The position numbers and the translations under genes are program-made. A model generated the notes under the pieces. That model searched no databases. It was not told the DNA's origin and saw only the letters and a list, made by a program, of their open reading frames with translations. Below are positions 2,805 to 31,896 of a stretch of 35,248 nt of DNA, in pieces (within the stretch, counting starts at the first letter, position 1; each line of letters begins with the position of its first letter). The stretch lies in the NCBI GenBank assembly GCA_017853605.1, contig JAFMJG010000011.1:1-35248 (forward strand), read 5' to 3'. Source of the stretch: a bacterium. GTDB lineage: Bacteria > Bdellovibrionota_C > UBA2361 > OMII01.

Positions 2805-4088
2805 ATGAAGAAGATATACCGCTCCCGGATCAGCAAGGCCCTCGCCCTCCTCAAGCGCTCTGGCCAGAGGGAGGCGCTCATCATTTCAAGCAACCCCCAG
2901 GCGGTGCGATCTCGGGACACCCACTTCCCGTACCGGGCGAACAGCGACCTCTTCTACCTGACCGGCAGCCACGCCGAGCAGCTCACCCTGGTGCTGCGCC
3001 CCCACGCCGCCGAGCCGGTGGTGCTGCTCGCCTATCCTGAGGACAAGCACAAAACCCTGTACGAGGGCGCGCAGCCCCCGGTGAAGCCGCTCGCGCGGGC
3101 GATCGGGGCGGAGGTGATCGCCTCGGCTGATCACCTCAAGGCCCTGCTGGCGCTCGTGCGGGGCTGCGACGTGGCGTACCTGCAGTCGATCCCCGGCACG
3201 GCGAGCGCTGCGCTCAAGGGCGAGCTCGCAGGCCGAAGCTCCTATGCAAACCGCGCTCTCCCGCTAACCCTCGTTGAGGCAGAGCGGCTCACCTCGCGCC
3301 TGCGCGCCATCAAGGATCCGCACGAGGTTGCCCTCATCCGTGAGGCGGCAGCGCTCACTTCGGAGGCGATGCTTAACCTCATTCCTCTCTTCACCAAGGG
3401 CACCTCCGAGCGAGAGATCGCCTCGTTCCTCGACTACTACTACCGCGCCAACGGGGCTGAGCCCGCGTTCAGCACGATCGTCGCCGCTGGCCGCTCTGCG
3501 GCGACCCTGCACTACCACTCGCTCTCTCGCAAGCTTAAGGAGGGGGAGTTCGTGCTGATCGACAATGGCTGCGAGCTCAACATGTACTGCAGCGACGTCA
3601 CCCGCACGATCCCGGTCGGAGAGTCCCTGGCGCCCCAGCTGCGGGACCTCTACGACATCGTGCTCAGGGCCCAGATGATTGCGATAAAGAAGGCACGTGC
3701 CGGCGCCCGCATGAGCGAGCTCTTTAACGCCGCAGCGCGCGAGCTCACAATCGGGCTCAAGTACCTGGGCATCCTCAAGGGGCCGATCGCTGATCTCATG
3801 AAGAAACAGGCGTACCGCCCCTTCTTTCCCCACAGCCTCGGGCACTCGCTGGGCATCGATGTTCACGATGCCGCACCGGGCACAAACGACAGGATTGAGC
3901 ACCTCGAAAAGGGCATGGTTGTCACGATTGAGCCGGGCCTATATTTCGCCAAGCCCGTCGGGCCGCTGCCCGCCTGCGGAGTGCGTATCGAGGATGATAT
4001 CCTTATCACGCAGCGTGGGTGCGAGGTGCTGACGGCGGGCGTCTTTCCCAAGGGGCTCGACACCCTGCTAGAGGTGGTGAATCGCTAA
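2805..4088 (+). CDS. pepP: Xaa-Pro aminopeptidase (aminopeptidase P, M24B)
   Basis: Aminopeptidase P removes an N-terminal residue that precedes Pro from peptides, in the cytoplasm with two metal ions. The 427-residue protein has the two expected domains: an N-terminal AMP_N domain (about residues 5-150, with the FPYRANSDLFYLTG block) and a pita-bread catalytic domain. All five metal ligands can be read in order: Asp in LIDNGCEL, Asp in YCSDVTRT, His in HSLGHSLGIDVHD, Glu in MVVTIEPGLYF and Glu in GVRIEDDI. The start at 2805 is chosen because AAGGA precedes it at a usual distance; an in-frame ATG at 2772 would add 11 residues and cannot be excluded. It converges on the lytic transglycosylase gene with six bases between the stops. 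Confidence 0.94.
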   Translation: MKKIYRSRISKALALLKRSGQREALIISSNPQAVRSRDTHFPYRANSDLFYLTGSHAEQLTLVLRPHAAEPVVLLAYPEDKHKTLYEGAQPPVKPLARAIGAEVIASADHLKALLALVRGCDVAYLQSIPGTASAALKGELAGRSSYANRALPLTLVEAERLTSRLRAIKDPHEVALIREAAALTSEAMLNLIPLFTKGTSEREIASFLDYYYRANGAEPAFSTIVAAGRSAATLHYHSLSRKLKEGEFVLIDNGCELNMYCSDVTRTIPVGESLAPQLRDLYDIVLRAQMIAIKKARAGARMSELFNAAARELTIGLKYLGILKGPIADLMKKQAYRPFFPHSLGHSLGIDVHDAAPGTNDRIEHLEKGMVVTIEPGLYFAKPVGPLPACGVRIEDDILITQRGCEVLTAGVFPKGLDTLLEVVNR

Positions 4089-4094
4089 CGGAGG

Positions 4095-4859
4095 CTAACC
4101 AACCGCCTTCGACACGGGGCTGAAGCCGTAGCGGGATGGGTTGCCCACAATGAGCGAGAGCGCTATCACGCGCGGCACAAAGCGCCGGGTCTCGCCTGGC
4201 AGCTGGCCGCCACGAGCGAGCTCCCAGAAGTCTGCATCTGAGTTCCTTGCGAGGACCTTGCCGACGGCGCCACTGCCAGCGTTGTAGGCCGCCAGCACCA
4301 GGTGCCAGTCGTTAAATTTGGCAAAGAGATCGCGCAGGTGCTTCGCCGCCGCCTGGGTGGACCGCTCGGGGTCGAGCCGGTCGTCGCGGCCTGAGGTGAC
4401 CTTGAGGCCATAGAGCTGCGCCGTGGTGCGCATGAACTGCCACATCCCCCGCGCTCCAGCTGGGCTGGCCGCCTTTGGGTTGAGGCCACTCTCTACCGCC
4501 GCCACAGAGAGCAGCTCGGTCGGCACGCCCTCCCCTGCAAACACCTCTCCCATCCTCTCAAGCTGGTCTGAGTTGTGCTGCAAAACCCGCTCAACCGTGC
4601 CGCGGTCGCTGTTCATGAACCGGTCGAGCTCGAGCTGAACCTCCGGAGTGACCCCAAAATCGGGCTTAGGGAGGACGCGAGCAGTCTGTAGAGAGAGCTG
4701 GTGCGCAGAGTTTGGGCCCGAGAGAGAATCCTCATCCTCTCCCGCCAGGAAGAGGTCTCCAGCGCCGAGACCGCGGGATATGAACCCGCACCCCACCGAT
4801 GGAAGCACCATTACGAGCACGGATGCGGCCAAAAAGAGGCGGCCCAGGAGTGTTTTCAT
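4095..4859 (-). CDS. Lytic transglycosylase lipoprotein, SLT domain
   Basis: A 254-residue membrane-bound murein lytic transglycosylase of the Slt70/MltD type, which cleaves the MurNAc-GlcNAc bond to give 1,6-anhydro ends in the periplasm. The N-terminus is a lipoprotein-type signal peptide (start MKTLLGRLFLAAS, likely lipid Cys in PSVGCGF). The SLT domain occupies about residues 105-245: the catalytic Glu is in LLSVAAVESGLNP, followed by SPAGARGMWQFM, the DDRLDPERS block and the VLAAYNAGSG motif, all typical of the family. No LysM repeats follow, so it is shorter than MltD. A start 31 codons further upstream lies in frame, but the signal peptide places the start at 4859. A near-perfect palindrome lies 27 bases upstream of the start. 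It is divergent from an L,D-transpeptidase-like lipoprotein gene. Confidence 0.9.
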   Translation of the reverse strand: MKTLLGRLFLAASVLVMVLPSVGCGFISRGLGAGDLFLAGEDEDSLSGPNSAHQLSLQTARVLPKPDFGVTPEVQLELDRFMNSDRGTVERVLQHNSDQLERMGEVFAGEGVPTELLSVAAVESGLNPKAASPAGARGMWQFMRTTAQLYGLKVTSGRDDRLDPERSTQAAAKHLRDLFAKFNDWHLVLAAYNAGSGAVGKVLARNSDADFWELARGGQLPGETRRFVPRVIALSLIVGNPSRYGFSPVSKAVG

Positions 4860-7037: not shown

Positions 7038-9287
7038 GTGATTCGACTTTTAGGTGACGATTCGCGCTTTCCCCAAGGCTCCGTGCCTACCGGAGAGGAC
7101 CAAACATTGCACCACGCCAGAGGCGTGATCCGCCAAACGGATGCATACCTCGCCTTCCCGCCATGCATCGACATGAAGGTGGTCGAGGGGCGTCGCGCAA
7201 CGATCGAGTCGATCCTGCACCACTTCATCGACGATGAGGGCCGCCCCTCCGGCGAGGTTCTCTCTCTCACGGTCAAGGGCGTTTCGCGCAGCGGCACGCC
7301 GGTGGTCCGCTACGATCTCCCAACCTCTATTGGCAGGGCTCTCGCGCAGAGCCTCGCCCGCGTTATCCTCTCTGCCGCAGGGCAAGGCGCCGCCAACAGC
7401 CCGGGGCAGCCCTCCTCAGAACAGCCACCTGCCGCGACAGGCTCAGGGGCCAAGAAGGCGGCTGACGACATCCTTCTCGATCTTCACCGTCGCATCTCTG
7501 CATATCCAGAGGTGGCATGGAAGGTTTCTCCGATGACTTCGCCCAGAAATGGGAAGGTCCCTGAATTCGGGGCCGCTTCGGCCTCTGCAGGGGCTCAGGA
7601 ACGCCAGCTGCCTGCCAGGCTGGATGGCGTGGAGCCACGGCACCGCGACCGATTCATGGAGCGCGTGGCTCCAGGGTTTGCGGAGTTTGCCCAGAGTCCA
7701 GCCTTTGCGCTCGATCGTCGCTGGGTGTCTGAACACCAGACGGCCAGCGGCTGGGCAAAGGTAGAGGGCACGATCCTTCTCGACCGGCAGAGGGTTGCGC
7801 TCGATGTTGAGGTCGTGGATGCGGAGGACGAGCTCGTTCTTGAGGACTCATTCGCAGTTCCGCTCCCGCCACGGGATGCCAGCCGCCCCCTGTCGCCAGA
7901 AGCCCTCCACATCGCGCTCGAAGACCTGGTGAACGGCGCGCTCCATGAGTTTAGGAGGTCCGGCGTTGAAGGGATGCGCGAGATGCTCTCTTCGCGAGGG
8001 CGCGAAAGGCAGCCGCAAGAGACCGAAGGTTCGGCTGCAAGAGGCCGTTCCCGTAGCCAGCAGAGCGCGGCGTCGGAATCCGACAGCAGGATCCTGGAGG
8101 GGGATCTCGCCGAGGGGACGACGACCTTCTTCCGCGCGCTGCCGTCCGGCGCCCAGATCCTGATCAACGCAGGCGAGAACGCCGCCGCCCTCATCGTGCG
8201 AGCCTCCAGCTCTGAGTTTTCGGCGGCGGTTGCGTGGCCCATCCGTGACGCCCAGGGGATTGATCGCCCAAACTCTACGGCCTTTCACGGTCTGCGCCGG
8301 GCGGCAGACCTCCTTGCAACAGGCAACCTGGAGCAGAGGCGCGCCGTGCTCACATTCCTGGAAAAGCTCACGAAGGACACGACTGGGCGGCCTCCGATCC
8401 GGTCCGGATGCTCCGTTGAGTCGCTCCTCGGTGCGGAGATGCTCGATGAGATGCGCTCGCTCTACCACATACAGGTGAGCAACCCAGCCGCGGAGCGGGA
8501 TGATGAGGTCATCGAGCTCATGAACGGCATCCAGTCGTTCAAGATCCACCTCAAGAACCCAGCGCTGCGGGGGAGCGCCCTCACGGGGTTCCCGGTGCTG
8601 CGGTTCGGGCTTTTTCCGGATGAGTCGCTCTATGTGCGCGCGAGCAATCCAGTGGGGGGGCAGCTCAAGGCGTTCATCTCCGCAGCGAGCTGCGGCAAGC
8701 TTGGCGGCTTCCAGGAGGTGGTGCGCTCTATCGCAGAGGAGCTAGGAGAGAGCCGCACACCGTCAGAGACCCGGGTGCGCGTGTACTCCGTGTTGGAGGA
8801 TATCTTTAAGCGCGACGTGATAAGCAACGCCCTGGTGTCGCCCTACAGCCGGATGGGCCGCATGGTGCCGCCACCCTCACGGCACCTTGCACAGCAGGCG
8901 TATGATCTGGGCGGCAAGGTAGCTCGCGTGTGGAGCGCAGGTGGCGTCCAGCAGCCGGGCGATGTCAAGGTAGAGTGGATCCGTGACACCGACCGCTGCC
9001 GCGTGTCGGTTGGCGAGCCTGGCGAACGGGGATCGTTCGTCGAGCTGGACATGAGCCACAAGGGGATCACCAAGATGGAGTTCTTCTTGGCCTATGGGGA
9101 GCAAGAGGACCAGGTTCAGCAGGCGCACGTGGAGCTGGACCTCGTTGCGGCGAAGGGGGAGCCGTCGGCCGACTTCGCCCAACTCTCGTCGCTCCTGTCA
9201 AAGCTGAGCGAGCTGATTGACTCGCGCCCCGCAAGCCTGCACGAGCTTGAGCGTTCAGCCCTCTTTCGCGCTATAACAACCCTCTAG
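7038..9287 (+). CDS. Large soluble protein of unknown function (749 aa)
   Basis: I do not recognise any family. The protein has no signal peptide or membrane segment and should be cytoplasmic. It divides into an N-terminal block (about 1-115, FVIRLLGDD to RVILSAAGQG), a low-complexity Gly/Ser/Pro linker (about 116-140), a middle block with DRRWVSEHQTASGW (about 195-310), a charged Arg/Gln/Ser linker near 325-360 (RGRERQPQETEG, RGRSRSQQS), and a long C-terminal region of mixed helix and strand ending in helices. The start is uncertain: GTG at 7038 has GGAAA five bases upstream and lies just after a perfect inverted repeat; a TTG at 6984 would add 18 residues but would put the repeat inside the gene. 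It lies upstream of dnaB in the same direction, 243 bases away. Coding character matches the neighbours. Confidence 0.7.
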   Translation: MIRLLGDDSRFPQGSVPTGEDQTLHHARGVIRQTDAYLAFPPCIDMKVVEGRRATIESILHHFIDDEGRPSGEVLSLTVKGVSRSGTPVVRYDLPTSIGRALAQSLARVILSAAGQGAANSPGQPSSEQPPAATGSGAKKAADDILLDLHRRISAYPEVAWKVSPMTSPRNGKVPEFGAASASAGAQERQLPARLDGVEPRHRDRFMERVAPGFAEFAQSPAFALDRRWVSEHQTASGWAKVEGTILLDRQRVALDVEVVDAEDELVLEDSFAVPLPPRDASRPLSPEALHIALEDLVNGALHEFRRSGVEGMREMLSSRGRERQPQETEGSAARGRSRSQQSAASESDSRILEGDLAEGTTTFFRALPSGAQILINAGENAAALIVRASSSEFSAAVAWPIRDAQGIDRPNSTAFHGLRRAADLLATGNLEQRRAVLTFLEKLTKDTTGRPPIRSGCSVESLLGAEMLDEMRSLYHIQVSNPAAERDDEVIELMNGIQSFKIHLKNPALRGSALTGFPVLRFGLFPDESLYVRASNPVGGQLKAFISAASCGKLGGFQEVVRSIAEELGESRTPSETRVRVYSVLEDIFKRDVISNALVSPYSRMGRMVPPPSRHLAQQAYDLGGKVARVWSAGGVQQPGDVKVEWIRDTDRCRVSVGEPGERGSFVELDMSHKGITKMEFFLAYGEQEDQVQQAHVELDLVAAKGEPSADFAQLSSLLSKLSELIDSRPASLHELERSALFRAITTL

Positions 9288-9302
9288 GCGAGGCGCCCTC
9301 GC
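9288..9302 (+). terminator. Short hairpin directly after the 749-aa gene
   Basis: GCGAGG and CCTCGC form a 6-bp stem with loop CGC starting at the base after the stop codon. There is no T-run behind it, so termination is only a possibility. Confidence 0.25.
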
Positions 9303-9417
9303 TGCTTGCTGGGGTGACCCTTATAGGCGCGGCTCGCCCCCTCTCCCTGCCTTAGGCACCACCCAGCGGACTCAAGCGTTTGGCGGGATATGGGGCGCTC
9401 TTCCAGCCAGCGGGGCA

Positions 9418-9436
9418 GAGGAGGGCAGGCCTCCTC
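9418..9436 (+). promoter_or_regulatory. GC-rich hairpin upstream of dnaB
   Basis: GAGGAGG and CCTCCTC form a perfect 7-bp stem with a 5-base loop, followed after four bases by TTTT. It lies about 95 bases before the dnaB start. It could end transcripts from the upstream gene or act in the dnaB leader. The rest of the 243-base gap (9288-9530) shows nothing else. Confidence 0.35.
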
Positions 9437-9530
9437 GAGGTTTTCTCCGGGTTAAAGCCCCCTTTGGCGTTGACCTGTCCCCTCCCGTGTCCGATACTCC
9501 AGGGCCCGTAGATCCACCCCCTGAAGACGT

Positions 9531-10949
9531 ATGGAAAACGCCCGCCGGTACCGCGAAAAGCAGCGCCCTGACTCGCAGCAGTCGCTGCCTCCAGGCCGAA
9601 TCCCCCCGCAATCGCTTGAGGCAGAGGAGTCCGTGCTGGGCAGCGTCCTGCTCGACAACCAGGCGATCAACATCTGCCTTGAGCGCATCCGCGCCGAGGA
9701 CTTCTACAAGACGGGACACCAGACGATCTTCGAGGCGATGAGCATCCTCTCGGACCGCCGTGAGCCTATCGACATCGTAACCCTGGGGCAGCAGCTCCGC
9801 TCAATGGGCCAGCTTGAGAACGTTGGCGGCGCCCAGACGCTCTCCTACCTGGCATCGTCGGTGCCAAACGCGGCGAATGTCGGCTACTACGCCCGCGTCA
9901 TCAAGGAGATGGCGATCCGGCGTCGCCTCATCCACGAGTCCAACGACATCATAAACTCGGCGTTCAACCTTGAAGGCGAAATTGAGGAATTTCTCGACGG
10001 AACGGAGCAGCGCATCCTGGCGGTCTCTGACTTCCGGGTAAACGCGTCGTTCCACCGCGTCGGAGACGTGGTGCAGGACTCAATACGGCTCGTCGAGAAG
10101 CTGTACGACCAAAAAGAGCCCGTTACAGGGGTAGCGAGCGGCCTCGACAAGCTCGACAAGCTCACTGCCGGATTCCAGCCCTCTGACCTCGTTATCGTCG
10201 CGGCCCGCCCCTCGATGGGCAAGACGGCCCTGGTGCTTGGCTGGAGCCAGTACGTGGGCATTTACACCCGCAAGCCGGTGGCGTTCTTCTCGCTCGAAAT
10301 GTCGAAGGAGCAGCTTGTGCTGCGCATGCTGTGCAGCGAGGCCCGCATCAGCAACTCCAAGGTTCGCACCGGAGACCTCTCTGAGCGCGACTTTGCGAGG
10401 ATCGTCGACGGCGCAAGCCGCATCTCTGAGGCGGAGATCTTCATCGACGACACGCCTGCGCTCACGATCACCGAGCTGCGCGCCAAGGCGCGCAGGCTGC
10501 ACCGGGATGCCCCCCTGGGGCTCGTCATCGTGGACTACCTGCAGCTGCTGCGAAGCCCTGCCTACAGCCACTCGCGCGAGCAAGAGATCTCGGATATCTC
10601 GCGCTCGCTCAAGGCGCTCGCCAAGGAGCTTCACGTGCCGGTCGTGGCCCTCTCGCAGCTCAACCGGTCGGTAGAGTCGCGCAACGACAAGCGCCCGATG
10701 ATGTCCGACCTGCGCGAGTCAGGCGCGATTGAGCAGGATGCGGATCTCATCATGTTCATCTACCGGGACGAGGTCTACAACAAGGAGTCTCCAGACAAGG
10801 GGGTGGCCGAGATCATCATCGCCAAGCAGCGCACCGGCCCGACGGGGGCTGTTCGCGTGGCCTTCTCGGGCGAGCACACCCGCTTTGACAACCTTGAGGA
10901 GTCCGAGTTCGGCACGCTGGTTGAGCCGGAGTCTGTGGGCGAGTTCTAG
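9531..10949 (+). CDS. dnaB: Replicative DNA helicase DnaB
   Basis: DnaB is the hexameric ring helicase that unwinds DNA at the replication fork, moving 5' to 3' with ATP and recruiting primase. The 472-residue length and both domains match: the N-terminal primase-interacting domain (about 22-125, starting PQSLEAEESVLGSVL) and the RecA-like C-terminal domain from about 200. Walker A reads ARPSMGKTA (Lys231), Walker B IVDYLQLL, and the arginine-finger/H4 region includes DLRESGAIEQDAD. No intein or insertion is present. The ATG at 9531 has only a weak ribosome site. The gene is not next to rplI or alr as in many bacteria. It converges on a TPR lipoprotein gene with 18 bases between stops. Confidence 0.97.
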   Translation: MENARRYREKQRPDSQQSLPPGRIPPQSLEAEESVLGSVLLDNQAINICLERIRAEDFYKTGHQTIFEAMSILSDRREPIDIVTLGQQLRSMGQLENVGGAQTLSYLASSVPNAANVGYYARVIKEMAIRRRLIHESNDIINSAFNLEGEIEEFLDGTEQRILAVSDFRVNASFHRVGDVVQDSIRLVEKLYDQKEPVTGVASGLDKLDKLTAGFQPSDLVIVAARPSMGKTALVLGWSQYVGIYTRKPVAFFSLEMSKEQLVLRMLCSEARISNSKVRTGDLSERDFARIVDGASRISEAEIFIDDTPALTITELRAKARRLHRDAPLGLVIVDYLQLLRSPAYSHSREQEISDISRSLKALAKELHVPVVALSQLNRSVESRNDKRPMMSDLRESGAIEQDADLIMFIYRDEVYNKESPDKGVAEIIIAKQRTGPTGAVRVAFSGEHTRFDNLEESEFGTLVEPESVGEF

Positions 10950-10950
10950 T

Positions 10951-10964
10951 GAGCGCAGCCGCTC
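10951..10964. terminator. Small hairpin between convergent genes
   Basis: GAGCG and CGCTC form a 5-bp stem with loop CAGC, filling the 18-base gap between the dnaB stop and the stop of the opposing TPR gene. It is symmetric and could act in both directions, but there is no T-run. Confidence 0.25.
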
Positions 10965-10967
10965 GCG

Positions 10968-11990
10968 CTACTCCGGCAGCTTGAGCGCGTTAATCTCAGC
11001 CCTCAGCGCGGGGGGCCAGGTCATGACCTCAAACGGCGACCTCTCGCGAAAGCCGACCGCTGCCTCGATGTGCTGCTCCTCGATCTCCTCATCGAGGACA
11101 TCCTCCTCGGCAGTGGCGGCCTGGGCCCTCTTCTGCATGAGGTAGCCCGCTGCGTCGATTTCAGCGCTCAGCTCTGGCGCAAGGGAGACGAGATCCGACG
11201 CCATGCTCTCTGCTTGCGCCGCGCCCTTGAAGTCACCCTGCGCGTAGCGCGCCAGCGCCAGCGAATGCTGCACGGTGGGGTGCTGCGCCAGGGCCCGGAC
11301 AGCAGAGATCTTCTTCTCGACCACCTCCTCTGCCTCGGGGAAGAAGTTAAGCGCGACGAGCAGCCTTGCGTGCCAGCCCAGCTGCTCCGGGACCTCAAGG
11401 AGCGCGAGCGCCTCGTACGAGTAGCACAGCGCTTCCTGCTCGCGCCCGTCGATAAAAGCCAAGTTCGAGATAGACCTCGCGGTTCGGGAGGCCTTCAAGA
11501 GGTTTCTGGCTTGGCGGTACTGCTCGAACGCCGCCTTGAGCCTCTCCTTGGCCTTGGCGTGGTCGCCGAGCGCAAAGTCGATGTCGGCCAGGAGAGCCAG
11601 GATGGCTGGGTCGTTGGGCTTGCGTGCCAGGAGCTTTTCCGCCAGCGCCATGGCCTCCTCGTGCTGCCCGGTCTGGTTCATCGCCACAGCCAGGTTGAAC
11701 TCCGTGCGCGCGTTGCCCGGATTGAGGTAGTCGGACTGCCTCAGCCGGCTCTCTGCCTCAAATAGCCGGCTCTGTTTCGTGAGCGCCAGCGCCTCAATCG
11801 TTAGGCCGGCGATGTAGAGGTCCTGCGTTGACGCAAACACCTCGGCTCCCTCGTCAACACCTGGAACGGAAAAGGAGCGGTGCGACACCGGCACGGCACA
11901 GCCGGCAGCGAGGATTGCGCAGGCTAGTGCGCCGGCCACGAGGGCCCGCAGCGGGGGGTTGGGGCTTGGTCTTAGGCTCGGAGCTCCCAT
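10968..11990 (-). CDS. TPR-repeat lipoprotein
   Basis: A 340-residue lipoprotein with a classic lipobox (LAAGC, Cys near 31 from this start), so it is anchored on the periplasmic side of a membrane. The rest is alpha-helical with tetratricopeptide repeats: SRLFEAESRLRQSDYLNPGN, ARTEFNLAVAMNQTGQHEEA and PNDPAILALLADIDFALGDH are recognisable units, followed by further helices. TPR lipoproteins act as scaffolds for envelope assembly or glycan machinery. The start at 11990 lies 8 bases after the stop of the HAD-UbiA gene; an ATG at 12014 would overlap it and add 8 residues before the signal peptide. The tight spacing indicates co-transcription with the arabinose-lipid enzyme, which hints at a role with the same surface glycan. 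Specific function unknown. Confidence 0.82.
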   Translation of the reverse strand: MGAPSLRPSPNPPLRALVAGALACAILAAGCAVPVSHRSFSVPGVDEGAEVFASTQDLYIAGLTIEALALTKQSRLFEAESRLRQSDYLNPGNARTEFNLAVAMNQTGQHEEAMALAEKLLARKPNDPAILALLADIDFALGDHAKAKERLKAAFEQYRQARNLLKASRTARSISNLAFIDGREQEALCYSYEALALLEVPEQLGWHARLLVALNFFPEAEEVVEKKISAVRALAQHPTVQHSLALARYAQGDFKGAAQAESMASDLVSLAPELSAEIDAAGYLMQKRAQAATAEEDVLDEEIEEQHIEAAVGFRERSPFEVMTWPPALRAEINALKLPE

Positions 11991-23959: not shown

Positions 23960-26062
23960 TTACCTGCGCCGCCAACCTGAGGCTGCCGTCTGGGAGAAGA
24001 GGAGGCGCAGGAAGAGCCCCGAAAAGAGCCCCCACAGGATAGGGCACGCCAGCGGGACCAGCGCACCGAACAGGAAGAGGATGTACTGAAGCGCAAAAGC
24101 CCCCACCACAGCCAGGCAGAGGGACAAGACCGCTTTGGCGCCGGAGAGCGTCAGGATAAGGAACGCCATGCAGGCCGCCAATCCGAAGCAGACAGCGAGC
24201 CTACCGCTCCCCTGCACCTCCTCGACCCAGTCTCGGTTGAGTATGTTGGAGGTCGCAGTAGCGTGAATCTCCGTCCCGAACATGCCCTGGTCAAATGGGG
24301 TGACGAACGACTCCCGCTGGGAGGGGCCGGTGCGGCTCCGCAGCCCCAAGCCCACAAACACGATCTTTCCGGTGAACGTGCCGGCCGGGAGGCTCTTGGT
24401 GTCATCAACAACGAGCTGGTAGGGGACCGTGGGGATCGTGCGCGCATCCCCATAAAAGTTGATCAGGGAATTCCTGTCCGGCAGCTCCTTGTCTCCCTTC
24501 GGCGGCATCGCTCCAGCCTCCGCGAGTGATGGGACATCCGGGAAGAGATCGGATCGCTCAACATTAAACTGCCGCACTCGCCCAAATCGTTGAGGCAAGC
24601 CGACGAGCCCGATGCCAACTGCCGCATCCTCAAAAACAGCCGCCGGACGGATCAGCTCCTCAAGAAGGAAGGTCCCGTTGAGGGTCGCCTGCTGAGTGGT
24701 GCCCGACGCAGCCGCCAAAACAGTCGGCACCCTTTTCATCGCCGCCGCCAAGTCGGCATCCACCGACTGGTCGGCTGAGACATCGCTAAAAATGATGTCG
24801 AACACCACGCGCTTCGCCTTGTCGTCTGCCAGGCGAGTGAGGAGCTTTGTGTGAAGCTGCCGGGGCCAGGCTCCGGTCACTGGCACTCCAAGAGTCGAGT
24901 AGCTCGTCTCGTCCATCGAGATCACCATAACGTCCGGTGAAGGATCGCGCATACCGCGCAGCCTAAAGAGGTTGTCGCTCTGCGCAAACTCCATCCCGAC
25001 GAAGGTGTCAGTGGTGCTCAATGGCACCGAGAAGAGGGCCAACAGGGCCCCAAACATGAGCCGCGTGGTGAGGTGCCCCTGTGCAACGCGGCGATAGATG
25101 CGGGTGTGGAGCGGCGCATCATCGAGCAGCTTGTCGAGCGTAATCGTGTTGTTTATCAGGCCCGCCACGAGGCCTTCGTCGAGCTGCCGGGGAGCCTTGG
25201 CATCCAAGTTGGCAGCGAACGTCGGCAACGAGCGCATTCGAAGCTTTGGGTCGATCTCAAGCAGGCTGAGCAGGCCATGCGCCAGCCACTCTGGCACGTC
25301 GGGCCGCAACTCGCGCGGGTCCGGCGGCATCTCCTCAACCTTGCGCATGATAAGGCGCGCCGGCACGTCGTCATCGATCGGCGGCCGCCCTGTCAGGAGC
25401 TGGTACAGGATCGCGCCAATCGCGTAGTAATCGACCGCTATCGATGACTCTTCGCCAATCAGGGTCTCGGGGGCGAGGTAGGCGATAGTGCCCACGATCT
25501 CCCCAGACACGGCGGTCAGGTTTGACACGCCTCCGCGTGAAATGCCGAAGTCGGTGATCTTGAGGCTTCCCTGCTCCAGGATCATGATGTTCGCCGGCTT
25601 TATGTCGCGGTGGATAACCCCCACTGCGTGAACCGCCGATATTCCCCGCATGAGCTGCACTGCCACCCCGAGGACACCCTCGAGCGGCATAAGCTCAGAA
25701 GAAACGAGCGACTCTAGGGTACGGCCCGAGAGGTACTCCATGGTGTAGTAGAGGGTGTCGCCATCCTGGCCGAAGTCGAAGGTTCGCACCACGTTCTCGT
25801 GGTTAATCTTGTGGGTGAGGCGCACTTCCCGAAGAAAGCGGTGAACGAGATCCTCCTTGAACTGCCCCCCCTGCCGCAAAACCTTAATCGCAACATTGGT
25901 CTCGCCGAGCACGATGTCTTCGGCGAGGTACACCGACGCCATTCCGCCTGTCCCAAGCGGACGAAGGATCTTGTAACGGTTGGCGATGACGTGCCCTGCT
26001 GAGAGGAACTGATGTCCCTCCGTTCCGGCTGAAACCATACCCCTCTTTTTGGCGACACCCAT
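23960..26062 (-). CDS. Membrane Ser/Thr protein kinase with CHASE2 sensor domain
   Basis: A 700-residue inner-membrane receptor kinase. Residues about 27-290 are a complete Hanks-type kinase: Gly loop GTGGMASVY (37-45), Lys60 in VAIKVL, HRDIKPANIM (151-160), DFG (171-173), APE (197-199) and Asp211. A membrane helix follows (about 333-350), then a periplasmic CHASE2 domain (about 355-605; DVMVISMDETSYSTLG, RVVFDIIFSDVSAD, IVFVGLG, and the MFGTEIHATATSNIL block), then three helices at the C-terminus. In most CHASE2 proteins the output follows these three helices; here nothing follows and the output is the N-terminal kinase. All catalytic residues are intact. A start at 26038 (eight residues shorter) has AGAGGGG just before it and is an alternative. 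It is divergent from the FecR-TPR-barrel gene. Confidence 0.9.
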   Translation of the reverse strand: MGVAKKRGMVSAGTEGHQFLSAGHVIANRYKILRPLGTGGMASVYLAEDIVLGETNVAIKVLRQGGQFKEDLVHRFLREVRLTHKINHENVVRTFDFGQDGDTLYYTMEYLSGRTLESLVSSELMPLEGVLGVAVQLMRGISAVHAVGVIHRDIKPANIMILEQGSLKITDFGISRGGVSNLTAVSGEIVGTIAYLAPETLIGEESSIAVDYYAIGAILYQLLTGRPPIDDDVPARLIMRKVEEMPPDPRELRPDVPEWLAHGLLSLLEIDPKLRMRSLPTFAANLDAKAPRQLDEGLVAGLINNTITLDKLLDDAPLHTRIYRRVAQGHLTTRLMFGALLALFSVPLSTTDTFVGMEFAQSDNLFRLRGMRDPSPDVMVISMDETSYSTLGVPVTGAWPRQLHTKLLTRLADDKAKRVVFDIIFSDVSADQSVDADLAAAMKRVPTVLAAASGTTQQATLNGTFLLEELIRPAAVFEDAAVGIGLVGLPQRFGRVRQFNVERSDLFPDVPSLAEAGAMPPKGDKELPDRNSLINFYGDARTIPTVPYQLVVDDTKSLPAGTFTGKIVFVGLGLRSRTGPSQRESFVTPFDQGMFGTEIHATATSNILNRDWVEEVQGSGRLAVCFGLAACMAFLILTLSGAKAVLSLCLAVVGAFALQYILFLFGALVPLACPILWGLFSGLFLRLLFSQTAASGWRRR

Positions 26063-26200
26063 GGGTTACACGCGTGCGTACAGGACTAGTCGGCAGGAGC
26101 AGGAAAAAAACTTAGTTCGTCTCACACAAATTCTGATGCCGCATGGGGTGCTCACGCATCCTCATCTATGAGGGAATTGTACGCGCTGGAGGCTAAGCGT
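26063..26200. promoter_or_regulatory. Shared divergent region of kinase and FecR-barrel genes
   Basis: About 138 bases separate the kinase start from the preferred start of the FecR-TPR-barrel gene. Both promoters must lie here, so joint control is plausible. It contains an A7 run (26103-26109) but no clear palindrome or -35/-10 pair that I would defend. Confidence 0.4.
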
Positions 26201-29200
26201 TTGAACTTCCTAAGCCGTCGGATAATCCAGGTTGCCATCCTGCCTGTCTTGGCCGTCCAGCTCCTGCGGCCGTGCCCCGCCCTCGCCGAGCCCCAAGGGG
26301 TTGCCAGCCTGTATGCCGCCGAGGGGGATGTCGCGGTGCGCAGGGCAGGAAGCCAGGACTGGGGGGGCACCAAGACCGGAGACCAGTTCCGGGAGGGAGA
26401 CACGATCCGTACAGGAACCGACGGGAAAGCCGCCCTCCAGTTTGTTGATGGGGCGCTCGTTCGCCTGGGCCGCTTCTCTGCCCTAACGTTTGAAAAGGTC
26501 TCGCCTGCCGGAAACCCGGCAGTCACCCACACCGAGGGCAAGGCCTACTTCTTCTCGCGCGGGGCGCGGCGTGAGCCTGAGATCCGCACTAAGAACGTCA
26601 ACGCAGCGATCTTCGGCACAGAGCTGGTAGTAGAGACCTCAGCTGCTGAAACGACGATTGATGTCCTGCACGGAACGGTAAATGCCTTCAACGCCAAGGG
26701 CTCTGTTTCGCTGTCACCGGGAGAGCGGGCAACGGCGCTCGCTGGAGAAGCCCCAACCAAGTCCATCCTTGTCCGGCCGGCAGAGTCCGTCCAGTGGATG
26801 GTAAACTTCCCAATGCTCCTCGTGGAGAGCGACTTTATCGCTTCGCCTGATCCTGGCTGCCCTGCATCATGCGCTTTGGCCGTGCGGCAGGCGCTGAATG
26901 AGTCCGCAAATGGGCGCTCGCTGCTTGAGGCGCTGCAGGGGGGCGGCCGCGCTCTCGAGGGAACGCAGCGCGGCGCGATCCTCAGGGCTATAGGTCTCTG
27001 GCGTGCGGGAGCTCCGGCTGCAGCGGAGGCAACTCTCGGCTCCCTCCAGGGGGGCGGCAGCCCAACTGACAACGCCCTGCGCGAGCTCGTCGCTGGCTTC
27101 ACCGCCCTGGTTCGCGGGAACACCAACGGCGCGAATGAGCGCCTACAAGCCGCCGTGGCCTACCGCCCAGGGCTGGCAAACGAGCAGCTGCTCAAGTCCT
27201 ATGTCCTGCAGTCTCGCGGAGACCTCGAGGGTGCGCTGGCCGCAATTTCGCTAGCGCGCCAAGAGCACCCAAAGCTGCCGGCGCTGTACGACAGGGAGGC
27301 CGAGCTGCTCCTCTCGTTCAACCGCTACGATGACGCCACTGCCCTCCTCGCGGATCGCCAGCGGGAGTTTGGCCACAGCGCCATGAACTCGGTGCTGGCG
27401 GGCTTTGCCGCGCTTGCCCGCCATGAGTTTGCCGAGGCAGAGGCCGACTTCACCCTTGCACAGCGCGAGGATCCATCGCAGTCGCTCGCCTACCTTGGCC
27501 AGGCCCTCGTGAAGGTAAACGACCAGGACTATGCGGCAACAAAGGAGCTCCTTTCAAAGGCCGTCCAGCTGGATCCCGCTGTGTCATCCTACCGCTCCTA
27601 CCTCGGCAAGCTGTTTTTTGATGACGAGCACTCTGACAAGGCTCGGCAAGAGTACAACGCTGCCATCGAGCTGGACGAGAACGATCCAACCCCCTTCCTC
27701 TACCGCTCGTACGTCGACGTCGCCCAGAACGACGTGATTGGCGGCCTCGCCGACGTTGAGCAGTCGATTAAGCTCAACAACAACCGTGCCGTGTACCGTT
27801 CCTCGCTGATGCTTGACAGGGACCTCGCCGTGCGCGGGGCCGGGCTCTCGCGCGTCTTTACCGAGCTAGGGTTCGACCAGATCGCGCGGGTCGAGGCGGT
27901 CAAGTCTATCAGCGACGACTACAGCAACTTCTCTGCGCACCGCCTGCTGTCTGATGCGTACGAGTCTATCATCGATGTGGATGCGAGAGTCTCGGAGGAT
28001 CGGATTGCAAACCTCCTCTCTCCGCTCAGCTTCAACATCTTCAACAGCATCGGCGAGTCAGTGGCGCTGGGCGACTACAACGCCCTCTTTGACAAGAAGG
28101 AGAACCGGGAGGCCGTATCAGCCCGCTGGGTAAGCAACCAGAACCAGGTGGGCGCCCAGCTCCTCACCACCGGAAAGACTGACACGTTTGGATGGCTCTT
28201 TAGGTACCAGCCCTTCTACCTGAACACATCCCAGAACAACGCCCACCAGGCAGAGAACCGCATTAGGGGGGCAATTCAGTACGAGGTGACCCCCGACGAC
28301 CGCCTGGTGCTTGAGGGCAACTTCAACTCGTACGGCGACAGGTCGTCCGACTCGATACCGACCTCTGCGGGCCCCGTTGAGCTATCGGACTCCTCCGACG
28401 TGAAGCTCGGAAACGTGCTGCTGGGCTACAACCACAGGTTTTCGGCCCAGACAACCCTGCTCGTGCAGGGCGAGTACGCGCGTGACAGCTCCAAGACCTC
28501 GGTCACAAACGACAACCGCCAGAACTTCCTTTCGCTTCCTTCAGCGCCGGAGGACTACTACCCGAGCGTGCTAAGCCTGCAGCAAGGGGCCAATGAGGTC
28601 ACGAACCGCGGCGGCCTCTCGGCGCAGGTTATCTACGCATCGAAGTACGTGGACTCAGTCAGCGGCGCACAGGGTCTCTACGTCGATCCCAACCGCCAAG
28701 AGAGCTCCCCCCTCTACGCGCTCGACGCCTGTGGCGCCTTTGAGCCCCCATGCGCTGGGGGCGTGAACGGCCTGATCTCCACCAGCGCCTCAACCAGCCT
28801 AACCTCTGGAACGGCGTACGAGTACCTGTCGCTCAAGATACCCCAGCGGGCTAACCTTACGCTCGGCTTGGCAGCCACCTCCGTGCAGTACGATCTGACC
28901 GAGGTCCCCCCCTTCCTCTCAGGGCGCGGCAGGGAGAGCAAGCTCGACCCAAAGATCGGCCTCCTCACCACGCCGACCTCGTGGCTCACAACTCGCGCTG
29001 CCTACTTCGAGACGCTCGGAAAGTCGGTGCTTGAGGACCAAAGCTCCCTTGAGCCAACGCTCGTCGGCGGCCTCAACCAGGACTTCAACGACCTGCCGGG
29101 TGCCGAGAGCCGCAACTATGCCTTCGGCCTAGACGCGAAGCTCCCCAACGTAGTGTACGCCGGCGCCCAGTACACCCACCGCAACATCCGCGAGCCCCTT

Positions 29201-29725
29201 GGGGATGTCTCGCAGCTCACCCTTCTCGATGGCGACAACCTCTCCCTCACGCGCCTCTACAACGGCGGCTTCCTTAACTCCGATTCGGAATCGCAGCTCC
29301 TGCGAAGCTACATTTATGGCGTGCTAACCGAGTCAACCGTGCTCACCGCAGACTCACTGATAAACTGGTACAACCTGACCGACCCAGGCGAGAGTCCGGG
29401 ATATATTGACACTCGGCGCTTGCGCCTCGGCGCGCGACAGTACTGGGGCAAGCACCTCTCCTTTACGGCCCAAGGCACCTACCGAAACCAGGACACCGCC
29501 GGCATCCAGAGCGCGCTTGTGCCCGGAGACCTGAGCGCCGGTGGCGGCTTCTGGCTCTTTGATGCCGCCGTCTCCTACCGCTTTCCTGAACAGCACGGAA
29601 ACCTGTTCTTCCGCGTTGACAACGTTCTCAACAGGTCATTTGAGTACGACCAGTCCCCCGGCATTGAGCCCCTCCTGCTAGAGGGGCGCTCCTTTATCCT
29701 GGGGGTTAACTACAACTTCTTCTAG
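26201..29725 (+). CDS. FecR-TPR-outer-membrane beta-barrel protein
   Basis: A protein of 1,174 residues with a signal peptide (cleavage after PALA) and three parts. A FecR domain (about 35-185) contains EGDVAVRRAG, GDTIRTGTDGKAALQF, IRTKNVNAAIFGTELVV and SLSPGERATA. TPR-like helical repeats follow (about 215-560; for example LAYLGQALVKVNDQDYAAT). From about 625 to the end is a beta-barrel of alternating strands with Asn/Asp-rich loops, closing with FFRVDNVLNRSFEYDQ and RSFILGVNYNFF, the end pattern of TonB-dependent receptors with a final Phe. No plug domain or TonB box is seen. A TTG at 26201 is preferred as start: GGAGG lies eight bases upstream and it gives a normal signal peptide; an ATG at 26168 has no ribosome site. 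Substrate and function are unknown; periplasmic FecR parts are known to relay signals in FecA-type systems. Confidence 0.85.
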   Translation: MNFLSRRIIQVAILPVLAVQLLRPCPALAEPQGVASLYAAEGDVAVRRAGSQDWGGTKTGDQFREGDTIRTGTDGKAALQFVDGALVRLGRFSALTFEKVSPAGNPAVTHTEGKAYFFSRGARREPEIRTKNVNAAIFGTELVVETSAAETTIDVLHGTVNAFNAKGSVSLSPGERATALAGEAPTKSILVRPAESVQWMVNFPMLLVESDFIASPDPGCPASCALAVRQALNESANGRSLLEALQGGGRALEGTQRGAILRAIGLWRAGAPAAAEATLGSLQGGGSPTDNALRELVAGFTALVRGNTNGANERLQAAVAYRPGLANEQLLKSYVLQSRGDLEGALAAISLARQEHPKLPALYDREAELLLSFNRYDDATALLADRQREFGHSAMNSVLAGFAALARHEFAEAEADFTLAQREDPSQSLAYLGQALVKVNDQDYAATKELLSKAVQLDPAVSSYRSYLGKLFFDDEHSDKARQEYNAAIELDENDPTPFLYRSYVDVAQNDVIGGLADVEQSIKLNNNRAVYRSSLMLDRDLAVRGAGLSRVFTELGFDQIARVEAVKSISDDYSNFSAHRLLSDAYESIIDVDARVSEDRIANLLSPLSFNIFNSIGESVALGDYNALFDKKENREAVSARWVSNQNQVGAQLLTTGKTDTFGWLFRYQPFYLNTSQNNAHQAENRIRGAIQYEVTPDDRLVLEGNFNSYGDRSSDSIPTSAGPVELSDSSDVKLGNVLLGYNHRFSAQTTLLVQGEYARDSSKTSVTNDNRQNFLSLPSAPEDYYPSVLSLQQGANEVTNRGGLSAQVIYASKYVDSVSGAQGLYVDPNRQESSPLYALDACGAFEPPCAGGVNGLISTSASTSLTSGTAYEYLSLKIPQRANLTLGLAATSVQYDLTEVPPFLSGRGRESKLDPKIGLLTTPTSWLTTRAAYFETLGKSVLEDQSSLEPTLVGGLNQDFNDLPGAESRNYAFGLDAKLPNVVYAGAQYTHRNIREPLGDVSQLTLLDGDNLSLTRLYNGGFLNSDSESQLLRSYIYGVLTESTVLTADSLINWYNLTDPGESPGYIDTRRLRLGARQYWGKHLSFTAQGTYRNQDTAGIQSALVPGDLSAGGGFWLFDAAVSYRFPEQHGNLFFRVDNVLNRSFEYDQSPGIEPLLLEGRSFILGVNYNFF

Positions 29726-29742: not shown

Positions 29743-30603
29743 CTATCGCTGCGCCGCCGCCGGCCACTCGAGCGCCTCGGCATCGAGCTCGCCGTCGCAG
29801 ATGTGCGTGACGGGTCCGGTCATCTTGATGCCGAAGCTTCCATCAACGCAGATCGAGAGGCTCCCTCCCGGCATGCGGACCGTGACGTCTTCGCCCACGA
29901 GGCCAAGCCTCTTTGCTACTGCAGCTGCAGCAGAGCTGCTGCTTCCTGACGCCAGCGTATAGCCAGCGCCACGCTCCCAGATCTCGAGCTGAATCTCATT
30001 GCGGGAGAGCACCTTGAGGAGCTGCACGTTCGTCCTGTTCGGAAACAGCGGGTGCCTCTCTAGGAGCGGTCCAAGACGCTCGGCATTTTCCCTTGTTGGG
30101 TCGACGTTGAGCACGACACAGTGGGGGTTGCCGACGGTTGCCGCGCAAAAGAGAACCTCCGTGCCGCCCGCTACAATCGACTCTTCAATAACCTCCCTCT
30201 GCTCGCCCGCCACAGGGATGCGCGCGCTGTCAAAGCTCACCGTTCCCATCTCTACCGTGACGATCCTGCCCCCTTCCGCAACGCGGCAGGCAACCCGCCC
30301 GCCCGCTGTCTGCACAGCGAACGGCTCCGAGCCAACGAGGCGATGGTCCCACAGGTAGCGGGCAAAGATCCTTAGGCCGTTCCCGCTCTTCTCCGCCCGT
30401 GAGCCATCTGGGTTAAAAATTGTGAGGGCGAAAGCGTTGTCACCCTCCTCCTGCCCCTCGCGCACGAGGATCCCATCCGAGCCAATCCCGAAGTTCCGGT
30501 GGCAGAGCCGCTGCACAACCTGTCCGCTCAGACTCCATGGCAGCGCCCGGCGTTCCACGACGATGTAGTCATTTCCCAGGGCGTGGTAGCGGCTGAATTT
30601 CAT
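29743..30603 (-). CDS. DapF-family epimerase homologue with both catalytic Cys replaced by Ser
   Basis: The 286-residue protein matches diaminopimelate epimerase in length and layout: two similar halves, HALGNDYIVV start, FNPDGSRAE, VGNPHCVV and WERGAGYTLASG. DapF converts LL- to meso-diaminopimelate with two Cys acting as acid and base. Here the first Cys motif (CGNGxR) reads SGNGLR with Ser73, and the second (ACGxG) reads ASGSSSS with Ser219; both codons (AGC, TCA) are clear. The flanking substrate-binding residues, including the ERG, are kept. Either this is an active Ser/Ser variant, an epimerase for another substrate, or a non-catalytic paralogue. The ATG at 30603 is preferred over a GTG six codons earlier because AGGGGA lies about 10 bases upstream. 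It diverges from rlmC. Confidence 0.82.
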   Translation of the reverse strand: MKFSRYHALGNDYIVVERRALPWSLSGQVVQRLCHRNFGIGSDGILVREGQEEGDNAFALTIFNPDGSRAEKSGNGLRIFARYLWDHRLVGSEPFAVQTAGGRVACRVAEGGRIVTVEMGTVSFDSARIPVAGEQREVIEESIVAGGTEVLFCAATVGNPHCVVLNVDPTRENAERLGPLLERHPLFPNRTNVQLLKVLSRNEIQLEIWERGAGYTLASGSSSSAAAAVAKRLGLVGEDVTVRMPGGSLSICVDGSFGIKMTGPVTHICDGELDAEALEWPAAAQR

Positions 30604-30696
30604 GGTCTGGTTCCCCTGCACTGCTGCCTGGAGGCTAGCATCCCTGCCTAGGGAGTTCCATAGCGGCGCATTTAGGGTAAGAATGCGGGAGCCAGC

Positions 30697-31896
30697 ATGA
30701 TTTCAGGAAACGGCAAGACATCTGGAGAAACCCCGCAGGCGCGCATTGAGGGGGCCGAGTGCCGCCTCTACTCGCAGGGCATATGCCGCTCGTGCGGGCT
30801 GCTTGGGCTGCCCTCCGGCGCTCGGCTTGCCTCCAAGGAGCGCTCAATCCTCGAGACCCTCGCAGCGAGCGGAATCTGCCCCTCAAACGTTGAGCAGATC
30901 TGCCTGCCCGACACCCCGTGGGGCTCGCGCTCCAAGACGAAGCTGCTGGTGGGCGGCACGGCCGACAAGCCGCTGCTCGGCGTCGTGAGCCAGTCCCTAG
31001 AGTTTACTGAGCTGGCGCAGTGCCCGCTATCGCCCGGGCCCGTCCGCGACCTTCTCGAGGAGGTACGCCGGCTGATCCCTCTGGCATCACTGGTCCCCTA
31101 CTCGATTCGGGAGCGGCGCGGAGAGCTCAAGGGCCTCACGGTCATGACGAACTCCCCCCTCTCAGGCGGCATCCTGCGCTTCGTGCTGCGCAGCACTGAG
31201 TCCGTTCCGCGCATCCGGAAGATCATTCCGGCGCTCCAGGCCAGCCACCCGTGGCTCAGTGTAGTGAGCTGCAACATCCAGCCGCTCGCCGCTGCGATCC
31301 CTGAGGGCCCGGAGGAGGTTATCCTGACAGCACAGGACCACATCGTGGCAGAGTACGGCCCGGTGCGCCTCTTCCTCTCGCCGCAGTCTTTCATGCAAGT
31401 GACGCCGGAGGTTGCGGCGGCGCTGTATGGGTGCGCGCGCTCGTGGACAGCGGAGAAGCGCGGCGGCAAGGCGCTCGACCTGTTCTGCGGCGTTGGCGGG
31501 TTTGCGCTCGCCGTGGCCCCGCACGTTGACTCCGTCACTGGGATTGAAGCCTCAGCAGTGGCGGTGCGCAACGCGTCGATGGCCGCGGCTGAGGCCGGCC
31601 TCGGAAGCAGCGCTGATTTTGTCGTGGGGGACGCCGAGCGGGCACTCGACACCTCACCGGATGGGCTGGCCCTTGCAATTGTTAACCCGCCCCGGCGCGG
31701 GCTGTCGTCAGGGCTTCGCTCACGCCTGGCTGCGGCAGGACCGGAGAGGATCCTCTACTCCAGCTGCAACCCAGAGACCTTTGCGCGGGACGTTGCCGAC
31801 CTTGCTGCCGGCTATTCGCTCTCGCGCCTCGCGCCCTTCGACATGTTTCCGCTCACGGGACACTGCGAGCTCCTGGGCCTCCTTGAGCGGCGCTAG
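30697..31896 (+). CDS. rlmC: 23S rRNA (uracil-C5)-methyltransferase RlmC-like
   Basis: RlmC (RumB) methylates C5 of a uridine in 23S rRNA (U747 in E. coli) using SAM. The 399-residue protein has the iron-sulfur Cys set of the group: C22, C30, C33 (CRLYSQGICRSCG) and C109 (TELAQCPLSP). The methyltransferase part has SAM motif DLFCGVGGF (261-269), NPPRRG (330-335), the nucleophile Cys357 in YSSCNPETFARD and the base Glu391 in TGHCELLGLLERR. The middle region between is longer and more divergent than in E. coli. RlmCD or TrmA homologues are alternatives, but the short N-terminus with Fe-S Cys and no TRAM domain favour RlmC. Its stop codon directly abuts the opposing gnd stop. Confidence 0.88.
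   Translation: MISGNGKTSGETPQARIEGAECRLYSQGICRSCGLLGLPSGARLASKERSILETLAASGICPSNVEQICLPDTPWGSRSKTKLLVGGTADKPLLGVVSQSLEFTELAQCPLSPGPVRDLLEEVRRLIPLASLVPYSIRERRGELKGLTVMTNSPLSGGILRFVLRSTESVPRIRKIIPALQASHPWLSVVSCNIQPLAAAIPEGPEEVILTAQDHIVAEYGPVRLFLSPQSFMQVTPEVAAALYGCARSWTAEKRGGKALDLFCGVGGFALAVAPHVDSVTGIEASAVAVRNASMAAAEAGLGSSADFVVGDAERALDTSPDGLALAIVNPPRRGLSSGLRSRLAAAGPERILYSSCNPETFARDVADLAAGYSLSRLAPFDMFPLTGHCELLGLLERR

Follow-up and report, generated by a model that had tools for sequence, protein, structure and literature searches.

DapF-family proteins with serine at both catalytic cysteine positions

We identified a protein that sequence, fold, binding site and context all place in the DapF family but that lacks the family's defining catalytic feature, having serine (Ser73 and Ser219) at both catalytic cysteine positions. 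Its gene lies in a 35,248-nucleotide stretch of bacterial DNA (the window; Bdellovibrionota_C, assembly GCA_017853605.1, contig JAFMJG010000011.1). DapF is the classic example of an enzyme in which a thiol/thiolate pair removes an amino-acid proton of pKa about 29, and it is an antibiotic target through its catalytic cysteines. The evidence tips the balance, modestly, towards a working DapF-fold diaminopimelate (DAP) epimerase that would convert LL-DAP to meso-DAP with serine as both acid/base residues. Both DAP as its substrate and its role in the pathway are inferred.

A DAP-binding site with two serines

Family membership is supported by several independent comparisons. The 286-residue protein (ATG at 30603, stop at 29743; an in-frame GTG at 30621, 18 bases 5' of the ATG, is a possible alternative start) scored 235.7 bits in a profile search with the DapF equivalog model TIGR00652, against a cut-off of 114.65, and four further members of its clade also scored above the cut-off (210–253 bits). 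PF01678 was matched twice and was the sole Pfam family matched; by the same search, the protein is no member of the proline racemase family PF05544. Sequence comparison with solved DapF structures gave E-values to 4e-53. An AlphaFold model (pLDDT 95) predicts the two-domain DapF fold, and its best Foldseek match in the PDB was the closed, ligand-bound Anabaena DapF 9mro (TM 0.90/0.92).

Ser73 and Ser219 align with the two catalytic cysteines of E. coli DapF and of other solved structures. The original prediction had placed serines at these positions within an otherwise kept site, and it was right on both counts, coordinates and numbering included: the two codons are AGC and TCA, and N11, N64, G74, N75, N159, H161, N192, E210, R211 and G220 are all retained. 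In Anabaena DapF, DAP is contacted by Asn13, Asn66, Gly76, Asn77, Asn164, Asn197, Glu215, Arg216 and Gly225 (PMC12039745); these map to N11, N64, G74, N75, N159, N192, E210, R211 and G220, every one of them conserved throughout the Ser/Ser clade.

The original prediction did not include a set of changes near the second catalytic site. Tyr215 occurs in 47/47 Ser/Ser proteins, whereas Cys/Cys proteins have Glu in 21/28 and Tyr in 0/28. Ser222-Ser223 is present in 98% of the Ser/Ser clade, against Gly-Ala in most Cys/Cys proteins, and the counterpart of residue 222 in Anabaena DapF is Gly227, which touches the catalytic sulfur through its backbone NH (PMC12039745). Gln194 is likewise found in 47/47 Ser/Ser proteins, with Glu in 25/28 of the Cys/Cys proteins sampled. 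These clade-specific changes gather at the second catalytic site. Elsewhere, the window protein has Ile79 where the CGNGxRC motif of DapF has Cys. Such a pattern could mean that the protein is an epimerase with other bases, Tyr215 or the Ser222/Ser223 pair, in which Ser73 and Ser219 are structural only. The invariance of Tyr215 in the 47 Ser/Ser proteins and its absence from Cys/Cys proteins fit this idea, but a base is needed on each face and there is no clade-wide candidate near site 73, where Lys72 gives way to Ser in the Anaerolineales Ser/Ser proteins. We consider this arrangement improbable.

Table 1. Positions of the features discussed; rows without a locus name refer to the window.
Feature	Position	Strand	Basis or remark
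Ser/Ser DapF homologue	29743..30603	-	TIGR00652, PF01678 x2
Codon 73 AGC (Ser), first catalytic Cys position, SGNG vs CGNG	30385..30387	-	Alignment to solved DapF
Codon 219 TCA (Ser), second catalytic Cys position, ASGSSS vs ACGTGA	29947..29949	-	Alignment to solved DapF
Codon 215, Tyr, GYT vs GET	29959..29961	-	Clade alignment
Codons 223-222, Ser-Ser	29935..29940	-	Clade alignment; PMC12039745
Codon 194, Gln	30022..30024	-	Clade alignment
RlmC/RumA-type uracil-C5 methyltransferase, divergent neighbour	30697..31896	+	Context only
FecR-domain protein, C-terminal outer-membrane-like region, convergent neighbour	26168..29725	+	Context only
Serine/threonine kinase fused to CHASE2 sensor domain	23960-26062	-	Beside large FecR-domain gene
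dapF-less syntenic site, L197 (G001:C135)	3713-4629
dapF-less syntenic site, L198 (G008:C123)	8912-11241

Extent and history of the Ser/Ser clade

A scan of GTDB contigs for relatives recovered 11 at 43-71% identity, from delta-proteobacterial metagenome-assembled genomes of the window's own group, SAR324, a Lentisphaerae bin and Anaerolineales, and 11/11 were Ser/Ser. Surveys of 44 genomes of the window's own phylum and 46 of the SAR324 phylum found the Ser/Ser type in 11 and 29, respectively. Its holders thus comprise the window's own genus, another family of its phylum, SAR324, Anaerolineales and the one Lentisphaerae bin. Every relative found at ~43% identity or above is Ser/Ser, and all other DapF homologues found, at ~38% identity or below, are nearly all Cys/Cys. 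Close relatives with Cys/Cys, named in the original prediction as the sign of decay or sequence error, therefore did not appear.

In an alignment of complete-enough sequences (47 Ser/Ser and 28 Cys/Cys), the 47 Ser/Ser proteins fall on one side of a single branch (support 100/99) with a long stem of 0.93 changes per site, and none of them is a mixed Ser/Cys member. Serine is always encoded by AGY at position 73 and always by TCN at position 219. Either box lies a single substitution away from a Cys codon, which makes the double replacement look like a single ancient event, retained ever since. The clade is under purifying selection: dN/dS was 0.06-0.22 over seven pairs, with synonymous sites near saturation in the more distant pairs. 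The suspicion that the two serines form a coordinated change rather than decay is thereby upheld. We found nothing in favour of a decaying gene or of an error in sequencing or assembly, and the 47 concordant sequences from many assemblies, the invariable use of a different serine codon box at each of the two sites and a dN/dS well below 1 rule this reading out for practical purposes.

Two further departures from Cys/Cys were observed outside the clade. Three divergent DapF homologues (L024, L026 and L027, in G024, G023 and G026; family f4) form a small separate clade with Cys73 and Ser219. Their Ser219 is coded by AGY rather than TCN, indicating an independent change. Two of the genomes (G023, G026) had no dapB match and G024 had none over the cut-off, and LysA was found in none of the three, which hints that these homologues may have another function. 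The other is a DapF homologue from the same class of bacteria (L143; G047:C356:846-1667) that has Glu and Phe in place of the two catalytic cysteines and no longer has Asn11; it appears to be a genuine pseudoenzyme.

The Ser/Ser proteins might themselves be non-catalytic and act as binding or regulatory proteins. Loss of both cysteines is the simplest pseudoenzyme sign, and a precedent exists in E. coli, whose DapF is reported to bind the RNA pyrophosphohydrolase RppH and to stimulate activity (PMC4227774; PDB 6d13). Yet all other active-site residues, the buried DAP-binding set included, are kept over 43-71% identity, whereas the pseudoenzyme L143 has lost much of that set, and the genomes concerned would be left with no epimerase. 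A purely non-catalytic role thus seems quite unlikely.

Pathway context and copy number

The genome that carries the window has a DAP/peptidoglycan pathway that needs a DapF. On contig 220, dapA (290 bits, over cut-off) overlaps dapB (151 bits, over cut-off). The genome also encodes a DapL-like aminotransferase (PRK06290, 441 bits, under the cut-off of 585), and its MurE carries DNPR, which we take to be the motif of meso-DAP-adding MurE enzymes. Given this motif, we rejected the possibility of a lysine-type MurE, with which meso-DAP would not be required. No DAP dehydrogenase (Ddh) was found in this genome or elsewhere in the genus and, to our knowledge, only Ddh allows DapF to be bypassed. 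The DapL route had been proposed as an alternative to DapF; this proposal fails because DapL yields LL-DAP, which still requires an epimerase. A recognisable DAP decarboxylase (LysA) was not found in several members of the genus (G000, G002, G011), the window's genome included, which suggests that these bacteria are lysine auxotrophs or have a decarboxylase that escaped recognition. LysA acts on meso-DAP, and it scored over the cut-off in G004, G007 and G033, where the Ser/Ser protein is the sole DapF and Ddh is absent.

Protein and PF01678 searches of the window's genome (96.6% complete) gave no second DapF, so the protein is its only copy, a case that the original prediction had singled out. 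PF01678 identified one gene here and in each DapF-bearing relative, and it was single copy in 7/8 Ser/Ser genomes tested from other lineages, SAR324 and Anaerolineales included. The exception is the Lentisphaerae bin, which holds both a Ser/Ser gene (L035, 3386-4243) and a Cys/Cys gene (L209, G042:C137); the former has 71% GC, and its contig may be a binning error. No genome with both types was seen in the own-phylum and SAR324-phylum surveys, in which single-DapF status for most SAR324 genomes comes from a protein search that also detects the Cys/Cys type at 28-34% identity. One DapF per genome, Ser/Ser or Cys/Cys and never both, is what would be expected of functional replacement.

Gene order was uninformative within the window and more telling outside it. 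The window dapF stands alone, with a convergent FecR-domain gene on one side and a divergent RNA methyltransferase gene on the other, and so offered no operon context as a clue to function; the RlmC/RumA-type methyltransferase is conserved beside dapF in the genus and has no functional link to it. The large FecR-domain gene is itself adjoined by a serine/threonine kinase-CHASE2 fusion. In family f17, dapF overlaps an upstream Mur ligase gene nearest Mpl, which recycles the meso-DAP tripeptide (scores of 298 and 316 bits, under the cut-off of 388.7). In G073, dapF begins 4 bases after a PBP1-type gene, and in several SAR324 genomes the overlap is with a LysE-family transporter gene, a DapE/ArgE-type deacylase and MurJ being nearby. 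This linkage points to lysine and peptidoglycan genes; LysE and DapE/ArgE are broad families, making it supporting and not decisive evidence.

Some congeners appear to lack dapF altogether. In G001 (92% complete) and G008 (96%), the syntenic site by the methyltransferase is assembled without dapF and no PF01678 gene occurs elsewhere, while dapB and a DNPR-type MurE are retained, as is LysA in G008. The less complete genomes G003, G005 and G009 are also without dapF. It may be that dapF sits in parts of these genomes missing from the assemblies; otherwise the genus has a different route to meso-DAP, which would weaken the argument from a sole DapF per genome. Near dapA-dapB, a 337-residue protein (L211:7118-8128 and L212:9461-10471) occurs, among the loci compared, only in two DapF-less congeners. 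Considered as a substitute epimerase, the L211 protein (cluster 16, beside dapB) gave no Pfam or NCBIfam match.

These congeners bear on the idea that the Ser/Ser protein binds DAP or a near analogue and carries out another reaction, such as elimination or dehydration of a beta-substituted DAP or lanthionine epimerisation, with meso-DAP supplied by an unrecognised enzyme. G001 and G008 seemingly manage without any DapF, which leaves room for such an enzyme; both epimerase bases are changed, and among enzymes of the proline racemase superfamily a Ser/Thr pair is the sign of a dehydratase (PMC4113996). Against this stand the one-for-one replacement of Cys/Cys DapF between lineages, the intact distal DAP-binding set, the presence of LysA in some Ser/Ser genomes, and a window genome without Ddh or another known meso-DAP route. 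We regard a different reaction as unlikely. Of the two options that had been suggested for this protein, altered chemistry and an altered substrate, the first is likely, given that neither general acid/base residue is the usual one. The second is disfavoured because the residues that grip DAP are kept and the linkage seen is to lysine and peptidoglycan genes.

Epimerisation without a thiol pair and comparison with known enzymes

If the Ser/Ser protein is a DAP epimerase, substrate recognition would proceed as in DapF, via the kept DAP-binding residues, and proton transfer would run through groups other than thiols. We surmise that Ser73 and Ser219, at the N-termini of the two central helices, move the alpha proton face to face, perhaps assisted by helix dipoles and backbone NH groups. 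The Tyr215/Ser222/Ser223 cluster would probably assist as well and is the obvious candidate for compensating changes; in a variant of this scheme, Tyr215 rather than Ser219 would be one of the two bases.

Serine catalysis in a DapF is surprising given the losses seen in Cys-to-Ser mutants of its relatives. Single Cys-to-Ser mutants of PddB retain <0.1% activity, a >1000-fold loss (PMC8225329), a similar loss is cited in the same paper for Mycobacterium DapF, and the activity of HisR mutants is greatly reduced (PMC11602996). The clade must accordingly have compensating changes or do something else. By analogy, the proline racemase superfamily includes a natural 4-hydroxyproline 2-epimerase of the Ser93/Cys255 type, which shows that two-base epimerisation can operate with Ser at the first position, while in Agrobacterium t3HypD the second Cys is lost and the reaction is a dehydration instead of an epimerisation (PMC4113996). 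We found no report of a natural Ser/Ser DapF, a two-serine racemase or epimerase, or a SAR324 DapF in the open-licence literature.

A Ser/Ser epimerase would mean that the thiol pair is dispensable, and would show how it can be replaced, in a large natural clade in whose genomes it is the sole DapF. Such an enzyme should withstand oxidation as well as DapF inhibitors that target thiols. If the protein is no epimerase, many marine and freshwater bacteria would make meso-DAP by an undescribed step. Databases annotate these proteins as DapF without comment, so the anomaly is easily overlooked.

Compared with canonical DapF (TIGR00652; E. coli 4ijz, H. influenzae 1gqz, Anabaena 9mro), the window protein is alike in fold (TM 0.90 to 9mro), length, DAP-contacting residues, H161/E210/R211, single copy per genome and a surrounding DAP pathway. 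It differs in having Ser for both catalytic Cys, Tyr215 for Glu, Ser222-Ser223 for Gly-Ala, Gln194 for Glu, and Ile79 for the Cys of CGNGxRC. The same two residues have been changed to Ser, singly, in H. influenzae DapF C73S (2q9h) and C217S (2q9j), engineered mutants reportedly made for crystallography; in the window protein, by contrast, both serines are natural and their surroundings have co-evolved with them. The Ser/Cys 4-hydroxyproline 2-epimerase and the Ser/Thr trans-3-hydroxyproline dehydratase (PMC4113996) share a natural Ser at the first catalytic position and the same overall fold, but they belong to another superfamily branch with another substrate, their epimerase keeps one Cys, and the Cys-less enzyme among them is a dehydratase. 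HisR/CntK, PddB and the O-ureidoserine racemase DcsC resemble the window protein in fold and general two-site layout; HisR, CntK and PddB keep Cys/Cys, whereas the window protein keeps the DAP-binding residues without the cysteine pair.
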